A stretch of DNA of 51,255 nt, from the NCBI GenBank assembly GCA_039680175.1, contig JBDKTO010000086.1, positions 1 through 51,255 on the forward strand, written 5' to 3'. This DNA comes from Veillonellales bacterium (GTDB taxonomy: Bacteria > Bacillota > Negativicutes > JAAYSF01). Below the pieces are notes generated by a model that was given only the letters and a program-made list of their open reading frames with translations, was not told the DNA's origin and searched no databases. Below are positions 45,534-51,164 of the stretch, one piece after another; the stretch's first letter is position 1, and the number at the start of each line of letters is the position of its first letter. The translations under genes and the position numbers were made by a program.

Positions 45534-46394
45534 CTAAAGCGTCAGATTTTTAACAAAATCCACAAAGATTCTGACTAAATTGATCGCTGCGGATTCCTGG
45601 TTATAAATCATCCAGGTTTTTCGTGTCAGCTCGTTTCCGGTTTTATCGGTGAGGTTGATTTTTTGAATCCCCTGTACGTCATCGCAAATCCGGGAAGGCA
45701 TGATGGCGTAGCCTAAGCCAAAGCGAACCATTTCTTTGCAGGTAGCTACTTTGTCGACCTGCATGCTGACGGAAGGGGGATGGGAAAAGTTTTCCCGCCA
45801 CCATTTGTCAATTTGAGCTTTTAACAAATGATCGGTTTGATAATCAATTCGGGGTAAGAAGGGGAGTTCTTCCAGATTCACCTGGTTGACGGAGGCAATA
45901 CAAATCGGCTCCTCATATAATAAATGTTTTTCGTTGAATCCGCCGTAGTCAATGCTGACGAAGCCGACATGGACGTTTTGGTTGTAGGCAAGACTGAATA
46001 CATCTTTACTCCAGGTGGTGGTCACTTTAAACTCCACATTGGGATGCTGCTGTTTAAAAAGCCGCAGCAGGTAAGGCAAAGTATAGGTGGTCAGGTAGTT
46101 TGACGCGCCGATGGTTAACGTACCGGCAACAGCACTGGACAAATTCATCACTTCATTTTTGATATCGCGCATTTCAGCCAATATTTTGGCTGCCGATTTT
46201 GCTAGAAAATCCCCTTCCGGGGTAAACTGGACGCCTTTCGTCGTTCGCTGTACGATTTTAACGCCGAATTCGGTTTCAATATGCCGTAAACGGGCGGTCA
46301 TAGCCGGCTGGGAAATAAACAAAGCCTGGGCCGTCTTTGTAATGTTTTTTTGCTGATGGAGAGTGCGCACAATAAGCCAGTCACGGTCTTCCAA
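45534..46394 (-). CDS. LysR-family transcriptional regulator
   Basis: A 286-residue protein from TTG 46394 (GGGGGGGAT upstream). The winged helix-turn-helix has NITKTAQALFISQPAMTARLRHIETEFGV, and the effector-binding domain covers about residues 88-286. It lies downstream of the DASS transporter on the same strand, with a terminator between them. Control of the transporter and the citrate genes is possible, because regulators of this type often sit beside citrate/tartrate transporters, but the target is not shown. Confidence 0.88.
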   Translation of the reverse strand: MEDRDWLIVRTLHQQKNITKTAQALFISQPAMTARLRHIETEFGVKIVQRTTKGVQFTPEGDFLAKSAAKILAEMRDIKNEVMNLSSAVAGTLTIGASNYLTTYTLPYLLRLFKQQHPNVEFKVTTTWSKDVFSLAYNQNVHVGFVSIDYGGFNEKHLLYEEPICIASVNQVNLEELPFLPRIDYQTDHLLKAQIDKWWRENFSHPPSVSMQVDKVATCKEMVRFGLGYAIMPSRICDDVQGIQKINLTDKTGNELTRKTWMIYNQESAAINLVRIFVDFVKNLTL

Positions 46395-46570: not shown

Positions 46571-47989
46571 TTACCAATAGCCGAGAACTTTCCACCAGGC
46601 ACCGCCGATACCGACCCAGATTACAATATGCATAAGCGATACGATAAAGCCCAGTTTCCACCAGGTTTTTTGGTCAACATAACCGGCGCCAAAATAAACA
46701 GGTGCCGGACCTGTGCCAAAATGAGTTAAACAGCCGCAGACATTAGCGGCAATAGCAACGACAAAGGCCGAAATAAAGCCCGGTGCGCCGGCGGCAACAC
46801 CCAGAGTAATCAAAGCAGCGTACATGGCTGTTACGTGAGCCGACATGCTGGCAAAGAAGTAATGGCTGTATAAGTAAATCACGAAGGACAGGACAACTGC
46901 GGCTATCATGCTTACGCCAACCATTTGATTCTCCAGTATTTTGGCAAACCAGCCGATGAAGCCAAGTTTATTGAGGTAATCCGACAAGAGAATCACACTG
47001 CCGACCCAAATCAGAGTATCCCAGGCCTTGGTTTCTTTAATCACGTTATCCCAGGTGAGAACTTTTGTCGCCAGCAGGATGCACAATCCCATAAAAGCAA
47101 TCAATGTACCATCTAGTTTGGTGAACTGGGTTGTTGCCCATAATCCCAGCAGCATAATGAATACGACCAATAAAACTTTTTCGCCTTTGGACATGGGACC
47201 CATTTTCTTTAATACATCATCGGCCATTTTTTTGGCTTCGGGCGTATTTTTAATTTCCGGCGGATAAATTTTATATAAAACATAAGGAATGGTAATGAGG
47301 GCGATGACACCGGGGACGACTGCCGCTACAAACCAGCTGATCCAGGTGATATCGACATCCAAAACTTTTTTGGCTATTGCGGCAGCCATCGGATTGCCTA
47401 CCATGGCAGTCATAAACATGGCGGAAACAACTAAGTCAAGGTGAAATACCGAGGTGATAAGATACGCGCCAATCCGCCGGGCTGATGCTCCCGGATGAGA
47501 GTCAAAGGCCTCGCTCAGGCTGGCGACAATCGGGTAAACGAGTCCGCCGGCCCGGGCCGAATTAGAGGGAATGGCCGGACCGATAATTACATCGCTGATA
47601 GCCAGGGAATAAACTAATTTCAGACTGCTGTCGCCGAATGCACGCATGACCAGATAGGATATGCGCTTGCCCAGCCCGGTAATAATAAATGCCCGGGCTA
47701 AAATAAACGCGGAAACGATCAGCCACACTGTACCGCCGCTGAACGCCGTCAATACTTGACTGAATTTTAGAGTACCGGTCAGCGCCGTCAATACAATAGC
47801 GATCAAAGCGACCGAACCGGCAGCTAAAGGCTGCAAAATAAAACCGACCACAGTACCCATAAAAATAGCAAACAGATGCCAGGCCTGGGGTGTAAGCCCC
47901 TGGGGCACCGGTACGAACCATAGCACCACAACGATGCCGACTGTTAGTAAGGCGGCAAATGATTTGCCGGAGAAGAATTTTTTTCCCAT
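46571..47989 (-). CDS. DASS-family di/tricarboxylate transporter (CitT-like)
   Basis: The product has 472 residues from ATG 47989 (AAAGGAG upstream); an in-frame start at 48046 lacks this. It is polytopic with about 12 helices. The first SNT-type motif is in AIPSNSARAGGLVYPI (Ser-Asn-Ser rather than Ser-Asn-Thr). The second half has LTHFGTGPAPVYFGAGYV. The family exchanges citrate, succinate, malate or tartrate, or imports them with Na+. Proximity to citDE points to citrate uptake coupled to succinate or acetate release. It is transcribed away from the chemoreceptor gene. Confidence 0.88.
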   Translation of the reverse strand: MGKKFFSGKSFAALLTVGIVVVLWFVPVPQGLTPQAWHLFAIFMGTVVGFILQPLAAGSVALIAIVLTALTGTLKFSQVLTAFSGGTVWLIVSAFILARAFIITGLGKRISYLVMRAFGDSSLKLVYSLAISDVIIGPAIPSNSARAGGLVYPIVASLSEAFDSHPGASARRIGAYLITSVFHLDLVVSAMFMTAMVGNPMAAAIAKKVLDVDITWISWFVAAVVPGVIALITIPYVLYKIYPPEIKNTPEAKKMADDVLKKMGPMSKGEKVLLVVFIMLLGLWATTQFTKLDGTLIAFMGLCILLATKVLTWDNVIKETKAWDTLIWVGSVILLSDYLNKLGFIGWFAKILENQMVGVSMIAAVVLSFVIYLYSHYFFASMSAHVTAMYAALITLGVAAGAPGFISAFVVAIAANVCGCLTHFGTGPAPVYFGAGYVDQKTWWKLGFIVSLMHIVIWVGIGGAWWKVLGYW

Positions 47990-48224
47990 AAAAAAATACT
48001 CCTTTCTAATTATAGTGTTGTTAGGTGAAATATATTGAGAAAGCAATATTACCCTATAAATTAATTATCTATTTTGAATAGTGTGATAAATACCGCTGTA
48101 AGAATCAGGCTAACCCGCAGCATTGACTGACGGTAACGTTAATCCATCGACATCTTGAGTATAAATATTTTTATGGGAAATGTGAAATCTGAATTGCTGA
48201 TATCTGGGTATCAAATATATCTAT

Positions 48225-48314
48225 TAATAACGCTGTCTCTGCCGTTATTCAAATATGTTATCGCTGACCATCATAGATAGCTATTTTTGCAATTTTTTGC
48301 TAACGATTATAATG
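48225..48314 (+). repeat. duplicated promoter/operator element, copy 1 (chemoreceptor gene)
   Basis: The same 90 bases occur at 49792-49881. The core, from GTTATTCAAATATG to the T-run before the -10 box, is identical over about 55 bases. It includes the inverted repeat AATAACG/CGTTATT with a 10-base spacer and a TATAAT box (48308-48313). Confidence 0.8.
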
Positions 48315-48375
48315 ATTATATAGCAAGCTAATTTTTATATATTTTATATCGCAGGCACTCAAACAGGAGCATTTA

Positions 48376-48470
48376 TATCCCCCAAAACCTGGCCTGAATG
48401 ATACAGCGTTTGACCAGCCAACTGAAGACGGGGATAAAGAAGCCAGCAGCGGTATGATGTTGGCTTCTTT
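48376..48470 (+). promoter_or_regulatory. structured leader of the chemoreceptor gene
   Basis: TATCCCC (48376-48382) pairs with GGGGATA (48430-48436) and encloses a CTGG/CCAG hairpin (48389-48392 with 48414-48417). Next to it AAAGAAGCCA (48436-48445) pairs with TGGCTTCTTT (48461-48470), which looks like a terminator. The leader is unusually long (about 260 bases from the TATAAT box). Confidence 0.4.
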
Positions 48471-48576
48471 CAATGTTCCAATAAGGCGCCGCTTACCAGT
48501 TGGTAAAGTGAATTGTACCGGGGAACCGCTGTAGAGAAGGCCGGAAAAGCAAAATGGTAAATTGGGAGGATGAAAA

Positions 48577-49764
48577 ATGGATTCGGATATTACCCTATGT
48601 GCTGTTGGCGGCACGAAAGATATTGCCAGGGAGTTTCTGCAGGCGGCACAACACGTATTAGGAAAGGCAGTTAATGGGATTGCTCTTACTCCCCAAGAAG
48701 TAAATGAACAGAAAGCCGACTTATTTTTTACAATGCCCACTCGGGTCGAAGAGTTAAGCAGCATTATTCCTAAGGATAAAATTATTGGCTTTGAGGTGAT
48801 GCCATCCTGTAATTTTTTTGTCCGGATTGCAAAAATTCCCGAAGGCTCCACTGTGTATGTCTTTCATAATAATAAACGGGGTGGGGAAACTTTTATAAAA
48901 AACTGCCTGAAATATGGGATTGATCATCTGAATTTTAAGTATATTCCGTTTAAGGAAATACAGGAACAGGAAATAATCCAACGACTACAAGACGCTAGAT
49001 ATATTATAGGGACTGGTACTTTAGTTGGTAGAGAAGGCATTTTATATAATAAATATGGAAAGTACTTACATGCCGAGGTACAAGTCATCGGCGCTGAACG
49101 CATTCCAACAATTGAATCAGCATCCTACATAATGCAGCGGATAACTTCGTATAAGCATAAAAAACTATCAAGGCAGGTTGTGATCATTGTTCAGAACTTG
49201 TCCCAGAAGTTACAGCAGATAACCGCCTCTACTGGAATTGCATCAAGTTCAATTGAAACTGGATCAGCTGCTTTGCAGAAACTACAGAAAGAAGTAGACA
49301 TGGAAGTGGTTCGCATTCAGGAGGTGCTCACTATTTCTCAATCTTTGTCGGAGGCGGCTAAGAACATTGGCTCTATTGCTGAGACCATAAAAATGATATC
49401 GAATCAAACAAACTTGCTTGCACTGAATGCTACGATTGAAGCTGCTAGAGTAGGAGAACAGGGACGAGGTTTTGCCGTTGTAGCGAAAGAGGTGGGGAAG
49501 CTGGCTAACGAGAGCAAGCAATCAATAGAAATAATTCGTAAGGCTGTACTCGAGGTGCAAGTAGCCGTCAACCAAATTGTTCCGGCTCAGCAAAAGATCG
49601 CTTCTGCTATGTCGAAATACCAAGCTGAGTTCGACAAATTCGTAGAGGCGTCAGTCGGTGAGCGGGATGCTCTCAAAGAAATATGCAGCGCTCAAGAAAA
49701 TATTAGCAGCATTAGCAACGAACTATTAAATGCGGCTGAAATATTAGCTGATTCCCAGCAATGA
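48577..49764 (+). CDS. soluble methyl-accepting chemotaxis protein with unrecognised N-terminal sensor domain
   Basis: A 395-residue protein starting at ATG 48577 behind GGGAGGATG. It has no membrane helix. Residues about 1-185 form an alpha/beta domain beginning [20 protein letters not shown], with a repeated 'DARYIIGTG' pattern. It vaguely resembles PrpR_N-type sensory domains of regulators, but I cannot assign it. Residues about 200-395 are the MCP signalling coiled coil with the conserved tip [40 protein letters not shown]. Codon use is more AT-rich than in neighbours. It shares its promoter element with citDE, so sensing of citrate or a product in the cytoplasm is a reasonable guess. Confidence 0.85.
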
Positions 49765-49791
49765 ACTGCTGGGGATAATAAATATAACTAG

Positions 49792-49881
49792 TAATAACGC
49801 TGCCGCTGCCGTTATTCAAATATGTTATCGCTGACCATCATAGATAGCTATTTTTGCAATTTTTTGATAGTGGTTATAATG
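49792..49881 (+). repeat. duplicated promoter/operator element, copy 2 (citD operon)
   Basis: Nearly identical to 48225-48314. TATAAT at 49875-49880 lies 84 bases before citD. The inverted repeat AATAACG/CGTTATT is a good candidate for a regulator site. Confidence 0.8.
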
Positions 49882-49964
49882 AGTGCAGAGCGAGCTTGGC
49901 TTTTTTATGGGGAAATTTTTGTTAGACTAACGAAAAGCAATATAAGCTATGGGGGGATTTAGGG

Positions 49965-50237
49965 ATGAGTAAGCTGTGCAAACAGGCGCAAGCGGGGACG
50001 TTGGAATCATCGGATATTTTAATCATGCTGGCTCCGGCCGAACCGGGCACGGGAATCGCGATTGAACTGATAAGCCCGGCTATTAATCAATATGGTGAGC
50101 ATATTGAAAAATTAATTGCTGCCATCATAAAAGACCATGGTATTCAGGATGTTATCATTCAAGCCAATGACAAAGGCGCTTTGGATTGTACTATTGATGC
50201 TCGCGTTAAAACGGCTATTGCCAGAGCTTTAGCCTAA
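49965..50237 (+). CDS. citD: CitD, citrate lyase acyl carrier protein (gamma subunit)
   Basis: A 90-residue protein, ATG 49965 behind GGGGGGA. It has AGTLESSDILIMLAP near the N-terminus; the first Ser of this motif (residue 15) carries the phosphoribosyl-dephospho-CoA prosthetic group. Citrate lyase splits citrate into acetate and oxaloacetate. The cofactor would be attached by the CitXG fusion at 3984. citE follows 12 bases later. Confidence 0.95.
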   Translation: MSKLCKQAQAGTLESSDILIMLAPAEPGTGIAIELISPAINQYGEHIEKLIAAIIKDHGIQDVIIQANDKGALDCTIDARVKTAIARALA

Positions 50238-50249
50238 GGGGGAGAGAAA

Positions 50250-51164
50250 ATGGAAAAAGAAAAACTGCGCCGGGCCATGCTGTTTGCGCCGGGCAACAAT
50301 CCGGCCGTATTGCAGAGCGCGGGAATTTACGGTGCTGACAGCTTAATATTTGATCTGGAAGATGCGGTTGCCGTTACCGAAAAAGACAGCGCCCGGCAGC
50401 TGGTTCATAATGCTATCAAATATTTGAAATATCCCTGTGAAGTAGGTGTTCGCATCAACCATATCAGTACGCCCTGGGGATATGACGATTTAGCATGCAT
50501 TTTGGCGGCCAAACCGGATTTTATCCGTTTGCCGAAAGCGGAAACTGCCGAAGAAATCAAGGAAATTGACGAAATTATTACTAAGGCGGAAGAAAAGTAC
50601 GGCTTTCCCTCCGGTTCTATTCAAATGATGGGCGCGGTTGAAAGCCCGAAAGGCCTTCGCAATACCTATGATATGGCGGTGGCAAGTCCGAGAATGATGG
50701 CGGTGGCTATTGGCGGAGAGGATTTTGTTACTTCCCTTAAAACCAGTAAGACCAAAGGCGGCAAAGAACTTTTCGTTGCCAGAAGTATGCTGGTGCTGGC
50801 CGCCCGGGAAGCAGGCATACAGGTTATTGACTCGGTATTTTCCGATATCAAGGATGACGCAGGGTTTATGGAAGAGTGCCGGATGATCAAAGAGTTGGGA
50901 TTTGACGGTAAATCCTGTATTTATCCGAAACAAATCGATATGGTTTACAAAGTATTTACTCCTTCGGCCAAGGAAATCGAAAAGGCGCAGCGGGTTCTGC
51001 AAGCTTATCAGGAGGCATTGGCAAAAAAAGCGGGCGTCATTTCTTTAAACGGAAAAATGATTGACGCACCGATGATTACCCGGGCTGAACGGGTACTGGC
51101 CAATGCAATGGCTGCAGGGGTGTATGAGAAGCAATCTGGTAATATGTCAAGCCCGAAAAAATAA
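50250..51164 (+). CDS. citE: CitE, citrate lyase beta subunit (citryl-ACP lyase)
   Basis: A 304-residue protein of usual length, with GGGGGAG before ATG 50250. It has RRAMLFAPGNNPAVLQSAG, the acid pair in DSLIFDLEDAV, the Arg in VRINH, FIRLPKAET, the metal-binding Glu in GAVESPKG, and IGGEDF. It cleaves citryl-ACP into oxaloacetate and acetyl-ACP. The alpha subunit citF would be expected next, but 75 bases follow before any start codon. Confidence 0.95.
   Translation: MEKEKLRRAMLFAPGNNPAVLQSAGIYGADSLIFDLEDAVAVTEKDSARQLVHNAIKYLKYPCEVGVRINHISTPWGYDDLACILAAKPDFIRLPKAETAEEIKEIDEIITKAEEKYGFPSGSIQMMGAVESPKGLRNTYDMAVASPRMMAVAIGGEDFVTSLKTSKTKGGKELFVARSMLVLAAREAGIQVIDSVFSDIKDDAGFMEECRMIKELGFDGKSCIYPKQIDMVYKVFTPSAKEIEKAQRVLQAYQEALAKKAGVISLNGKMIDAPMITRAERVLANAMAAGVYEKQSGNMSSPKK

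Follow-up and report, generated by a model that had tools for sequence, protein, structure and literature searches.

CcpC is the citrate-responsive LysR-type regulator of citB and citZ. In Bacillus, two dyads carrying ATAA/TTAT boxes are centred at -66 and -27 of citB, which is repressed by CcpC (PMC8514465). More generally, LysR-type regulators follow a scheme of paired recognition and activation sites (PMC11739112). Chemoreceptors can be linked to catabolic genes, as in the case of NahY and similar proteins, and receptors for TCA intermediates, MCP2201 and MCP2901, have also been described (PMC6600141). In the open-access literature, we found no paper that deals with the regulon described below or links a chemoreceptor to citrate lyase.

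The locus analyzed here lies in a window of 51,255 nt that corresponds to one entire contig (C86 of G000) of a Veillonellales genome (4.08 Mb in 121 contigs). Its LysR-type protein has CcpC as closest named relative, and shares with it the conserved residues S129 and R260 as well as an upstream site near -66, but the second box is found near -43 rather than at the -27 of the CcpC dyad, citDE and the genes of a transporter and a chemoreceptor take the place of citB as predicted targets, the score stays below the equivalog cutoff, and R147 is replaced by a serine. As in the general LysR scheme, two T-N11-A boxes precede a -10 box and the regulator gene is part of the cluster; unlike that scheme, the cluster carries three predicted promoters, one of which is a duplicate that would serve the chemoreceptor gene. 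Like NahY-type receptors, the chemoreceptor is linked to the breakdown of a compound or its metabolites, but in contrast to NahY, MCP2201 and MCP2901 it is soluble, harbors an unannotated N-terminal domain, and appears to be tied in by a copied promoter.

The repeat and its promoter elements

The first-pass annotation of the window had described a direct repeat of approximately 90 bp upstream of two genes; the repeat is real and somewhat longer, with 124 nt at 87% identity and a spacing of 1567, values that far exceed chance expectation. Copy 1 (48206-48329, plus strand), identified by direct-repeat detection and whole-genome DNA search, is the candidate promoter of a soluble chemoreceptor gene (48577-49764, plus strand), and copy 2 (49773-49896, plus strand), identified by repeat detection, copy alignment and profile score, is that of citDE. 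The gene identities given previously were confirmed for all three genes. Citrate lyase acyl carrier protein is encoded by citD (49965-50237, plus strand; TIGR01608, 86 bits, cutoff 63.5) and the beta subunit by citE (50250-51164, plus strand; TIGR01588, 371 bits, under the cutoff of 443), and this citD-citE pair is the basis for calling a putative citrate lyase operon; citE is 77% identical to its counterpart in genome G041, where the citDEF operon is complete. There is no citF directly after citE within the contig, which ends 91 nt later, and the orthologous operons differ in this respect. In the genome, citF was found solely in a separate citDEF cluster on contig C89, 52% identical to the query. 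A search for further copies, which had been suggested, showed by DNA comparison that the 4.08-Mb genome holds only these two.

The 16 mismatches between copies are all located in 63 positions (flanks 25% diverged), while the longest mismatch-free run covers the other 61 bp (48239-48299, equivalent to 49806-49866), a distribution expected with a probability of approximately 2e-4 if mismatches were placed at random. Similarity extends through the -10 box and then soon fades. Copies located 1.6 kb apart can undergo gene conversion, and their identity could stem from a recent event of this type, or from a recent duplication, rather than from selection on regulation. We judge this to be unlikely, since the identical stretch stops where the boxes stop, within diverged flanks, and since its conservation extends from one family to another.

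A DNA search of 300 genomes of the class with the raw repeat generated only 21-bp chance matches, and a profile was thus required. We excluded the window itself and derived a weight matrix from the stretches between lysR and citD in 11 other genomes; these stretches contain a sequence that aligns gap-free to the core of the window, with TATAAT at equal spacing. The citD copy scored 53.5 bits and the chemoreceptor copy 44.8 bits, as compared to 13.6 for the best of 2000 shuffles and -0.4 for the next site in the window. In the genome-wide search the two copies were the only strong sites (2.9e-14 and 1.4e-12), followed by a site at 0.026. Three further citD genes are present in the genome (C21:3639, C50:293 and C89:4825); the profile was found before none of the three, and they are seemingly controlled differently.

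Over 13 sites, the invariant columns are A2 T3, A15 T16, A25 T26, A38 T39 T40 and TATAAT, a skeleton composed of two T-N11-A boxes, 23 bp apart from centre to centre, and the -10 box. In the chemoreceptor copy, box 1, the putative recognition site, maps to 48247-48261 (plus strand; centre 48254, approximately -66; A2 T3 / A15 T16), box 2, the putative activation site, to 48270-48284 (plus strand; centre 48277, approximately -43; A25 T26 / A38 T39 T40), and TATAAT to 48308-48313 (plus strand), where positions relative to the start assume that transcription begins 7 nt past TATAAT, at the predicted nucleotide 48320. In the citD copy the corresponding elements, all on the plus strand, are found at 49814-49828 and 49837-49851, as identified by the invariant columns and the skeleton search, and at 49875-49880; both -10 boxes were located by copy alignment and promoter scan. 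In terms of sequence, such an arrangement is that expected for a LysR-type promoter, with a T-N11-A box near -65, a second box near -40, and a -10 box. The repeat is, by its sequence, an old, conserved LysR-type promoter.

When the window was searched for the skeleton with up to one mismatch, three sites were obtained, all of them exact, as compared to 0.02 expected. The 4.08-Mb genome contains three exact copies of the skeleton, all in this cluster (before citDE, before the chemoreceptor gene and, on the opposite strand, before a DASS gene), and the reversed control pattern does not occur. The third, divergent site, absent from the earlier annotation, spans 48158-48224 on the minus strand, with boxes at 48224-48210 and 48201-48187 and a TATACT at 48163-48158. 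It precedes the gene for a DASS-family anion transporter of the di/tricarboxylate type (46571-47989, minus strand; PF00939, E 3.6e-149; TIGR00785, 405 bits, over cutoff). This site matches the pattern without mismatches even though it was not included in the set from which the pattern was derived; its weight-matrix score is weak (-0.4), and the skeleton is thus what argues for it.

A different element had been put forward previously as the operator, namely the inverted repeat AATAACG-N10-CGTTATT (48226-48249 in copy 1 and 49793-49816 in copy 2), which could be recognized by another regulator, of the CitB/DpiA type, CitI/CitO or other. Both of its arms are unchanged in both copies. Upstream of the genes at orthologous loci, however, every match has at least three mismatches, and shuffling the 124 nt produces an equally good 7-bp inverted repeat in 21% of cases, so that by itself it is not far beyond chance; only one other exact RTAACG-N10-CGTTAY site exists in the genome. 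In addition, the conserved element lies downstream of the left arm and spacer: it begins within the right arm and continues as the two T-N11-A boxes. We thus rejected the inverted repeat as operator and consider it very unlikely to be the shared element.

The LysR-type promoter was also found in other genomes. In the 300 genomes of the class, the profile search yielded 20 hits, the majority of which precede a citDE(F) that adjoins an ortholog of the lysR gene. One site, in G073 (L195), precedes an OadA-like gene, and G007 has a second citD-type site (L138:3403-3470) before small OadG-like/OadB-like genes, all of these gene names being read from sequence and not by HMM. Oxaloacetate decarboxylase carries out the step that follows citrate lyase in citrate fermentation, and the sites in these two genomes fit a predicted citrate-fermentation regulon. 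G007 is also another case of one promoter type for two citrate-fermentation units. Propionispira has a DASS-then-lysR pair in the same order, with the skeleton before DASS, and in a Negativicutes MAG (L151/L217) citD and DASS are divergent, with one site per strand. In Bacilli, a relaxed skeleton gave 102 hits near the lysR ortholog in 80 loci, versus 8 after block shuffling, and the sites precede AbrB-like, PrpF-, aconitase- or TctC-like genes (names from sequence, not HMM). LysR orthologs are widespread in Bacilli (L201-L280), mostly in Bacillaceae and Paenibacillaceae. As a separate observation, TCCTGTTT (AAACAGGA on the lysR strand) recurs in the lysR/citD intergenic regions of L134, L136, L137, L139 and L157, where, read in the citD direction, it precedes box 1 by approximately 20-35 nt; it may be part of the lysR leader or another site.

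The candidate regulator and its probable inducer

The LysR-type protein is encoded at 45534-46394 on the minus strand and carries an N-terminal HTH_1 domain (PF00126, E 1.2e-14) and a C-terminal LysR substrate-binding domain (PF03466, E 2.2e-28), as in members of the LysR family. Its best NCBIfam model is CcpC, at 208 bits, which is under the cutoff of 400 and thus identifies it as CcpC-related, but not as CcpC; the match to the CcpC structure (PDB 5z72) has an E value of 3.7e-41. Orthologs 50-64% identical to it are found in many Negativicutes, usually beside citDE(F) and often divergent, while in its own genome the protein is alone in its close clade, the next paralog being 38% identical. 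The earlier suggestion that this protein could bind the repeat is now the best-supported one, because the orthologs adjoin citDE(F) genes that carry the same promoter. It is the likely regulator, and the best candidate binder for all three sites.

Of the six citrate contacts of CcpC, S129 and R260 (R258 here) are kept, S189 is replaced by T, and I100, R147 and S191 differ, with R147 replaced by S147 and S191 by H189. The pair of arginines looked for in a CcpC equivalog (R147, R260) is thus incomplete, and arginine is kept at the R147 position in 17 of 41 relatives. It is possible that control is shared but that the signal is another tri- or dicarboxylate, such as aconitate, tricarballylate or malate, and we regard this as a serious minority reading: two CcpC contacts are replaced by S147 and H189, and the related sites in Bacilli precede PrpF-, aconitase-, AbrB- and TctC-like genes. 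Retention of R258 and S129, as well as the presence of citDE here and of oxaloacetate decarboxylase elsewhere, point instead to citrate. Our best guess is that the inducer is citrate or a near relative.

We thus propose, with considerable but not full confidence, that a LysR-type promoter was duplicated and that one regulator acts on DASS-lysR, the chemoreceptor gene and citDE as a single regulon. The CcpC-related LysR tetramer would bind the T-N11-A boxes near -66 and -43 and, upon binding its inducer, presumably citrate or a similar tricarboxylate, would activate transcription from TATAAT; activation, as opposed to the repression of citB by CcpC, is predicted from the layout of the boxes. 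One regulator would then act at three promoters within 1.8 kb, one divergent for DASS-lysR and two in tandem for the chemoreceptor gene and citDE, and uptake, cleavage and taxis would thus form one unit of control. The near-identical promoters also predict that the search for a citrate-like acid and its fermentation are probably co-induced. Homology to promoters of citD in other genomes, a skeleton that the sites share and that is unique to this cluster, and adjacency of the regulator gene can be read from the sequence; LysR binding, activation, the identity of the inducer, the ligand of the receptor, and taxis are what we infer. The previous proposal, according to which the repeat comprises a promoter and its control sequences and places chemoreceptor and citDE under one regulator, is supported by the profile and skeleton searches. 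Counted against this model are the R147 to S147 replacement, the matrix score of the DASS-side site, the lack of a citF after citE within the contig, the long hairpin-bearing leader of the chemoreceptor gene, and the lack of this promoter before 19 chemoreceptor homologs, the last two of which are described below.

The chemoreceptor and the probable origin of its promoter

The chemoreceptor is composed of an alpha/beta N-terminal domain (residues 1-200) and an MCP signalling domain (residues 239-392; PF00015, E 5.2e-26) that places it among the MCP proteins. It has no stretch resembling a membrane span, with a maximal 19-residue Kyte-Doolittle value of 1.2 versus 2.4 for the DASS control, in agreement with its previous description as soluble. 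The structure of the N-domain was predicted confidently (pLDDT 93), but neither the domain nor any of 19 relatives has a Pfam match above chance. No solved chain related to it by sequence was found, and Foldseek gave no match at E <= 0.001. In VIA-align, the best Z score was 7.7 and all matches were tied. The sensor domain of PrpR (PrpR_N, PDB 2pju) aligned to the model over 176 residues with a Z score of 7.4 and an rmsd of 5.4, a likeness tied with LacI, periplasmic-binding and other unrelated folds and not accompanied by a Pfam or solved-chain sequence match. The modelled fold resembles two-lobed Rossmann-like binding domains, and the tied scores preclude a fold assignment. A structure search with the whole chemoreceptor was swamped by helical-bundle matches.

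Among the loci fetched, the N-domain (window positions 48577-49176) is carried by MCP proteins of approximately 356-432 residues. It is also found in proteins of approximately 268-329 residues that lack the MCP part (L072, L073, L077-L079, L082, L098 and L099), nearly all of which adjoin a LysR gene; several of these short proteins overlap the LysR gene at start/stop codons. The cit promoter was found before none of the 19 chemoreceptor homologs tested, and the wiring of this chemoreceptor thus looks lineage-specific. Neighbourhoods of the homologs consist mostly of unrelated genes, with the exception of G041, where a homolog lies between a lysR ortholog and citE/citF, an arrangement that represents an independent link between the receptor family and citrate genes. 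A search of contigs with the chemoreceptor as query gave no match. Proteins that resemble chemoreceptors and are encoded next to other cit loci (L145, L151, L162 and L164) were set aside, being alike only in the MCP domain.

The predicted leader of the chemoreceptor gene is long (257 nt) and contains a strong hairpin, at 48436-48470, with a near-perfect stem of 13 bp and a 9-nt loop (leader fold z -2.4); no Rfam match to an RNA element was obtained for it. No other promoter-like site was detected by the scan close before the gene, nor was a plus-strand terminator detected between the gene and copy 2, and transcripts from copy 1 may thus continue into citDE.

The repeat also holds information as to how it arose. 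The start of the duplicated block falls within the DASS-side box, which is intact in copy 1 (ATAGATATATTTGAT, minus strand) and decayed in copy 2 (CTAGTTATATTTATT), where no divergent gene is left. Within 68 bp, the citD copy is closer to consensus at all four mismatches, and copy 2 starts 9 nt past the stop codon of the chemoreceptor gene. The simplest reading is that in the ancestral layout DASS and citD were divergent from one shared control region, and that the chemoreceptor gene probably entered between them, with duplication of the citD promoter, which would have allowed the chemoreceptor gene and citD to each keep a promoter. The repeat could also be a mere by-product of this entry, through recombination or unequal crossing-over, with an upstream copy that never was, or no longer is, a working promoter. 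The repeat does flank the inserted unit exactly, with copy 2 placed immediately after the stop codon, the spacer of the upstream copy matches less well, and the leader is long and carries a hairpin; nevertheless, the upstream copy retains every invariant position as well as its -10 box, the operator stretch is free of mismatches in contrast to its flanks, and the chemoreceptor gene has no alternative promoter nearby. It is therefore quite unlikely that the upstream copy is a non-functional remnant.

A more tentative reading, which we regard as doubtful at present, concerns the N-domain itself: it could be an undescribed sensor family that reads the cytoplasmic tri- or dicarboxylate of the LysR circuit and is employed both on chemoreceptors and as a LysR partner, the receptor having been wired in by promoter copying. 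If this is the case, it would be a metabolic-taxis receptor made only while cells ferment the substrate.

With duplication of a shared LysR-type promoter as the favored explanation, the locus offers a compact and testable case in which chemotaxis would be wired to a fermentation pathway by the copying of a whole promoter, and the sequence itself reveals the regulator, its sites and the order in which the events probably took place. Across Negativicutes, the profile delineates a citrate-type regulon (citDEF, DASS and oxaloacetate decarboxylase) together with its candidate regulator. In addition, the locus draws attention to an unannotated sensor domain that is common to soluble chemoreceptors and LysR-adjacent proteins, and for which tricarboxylates are possible ligands.
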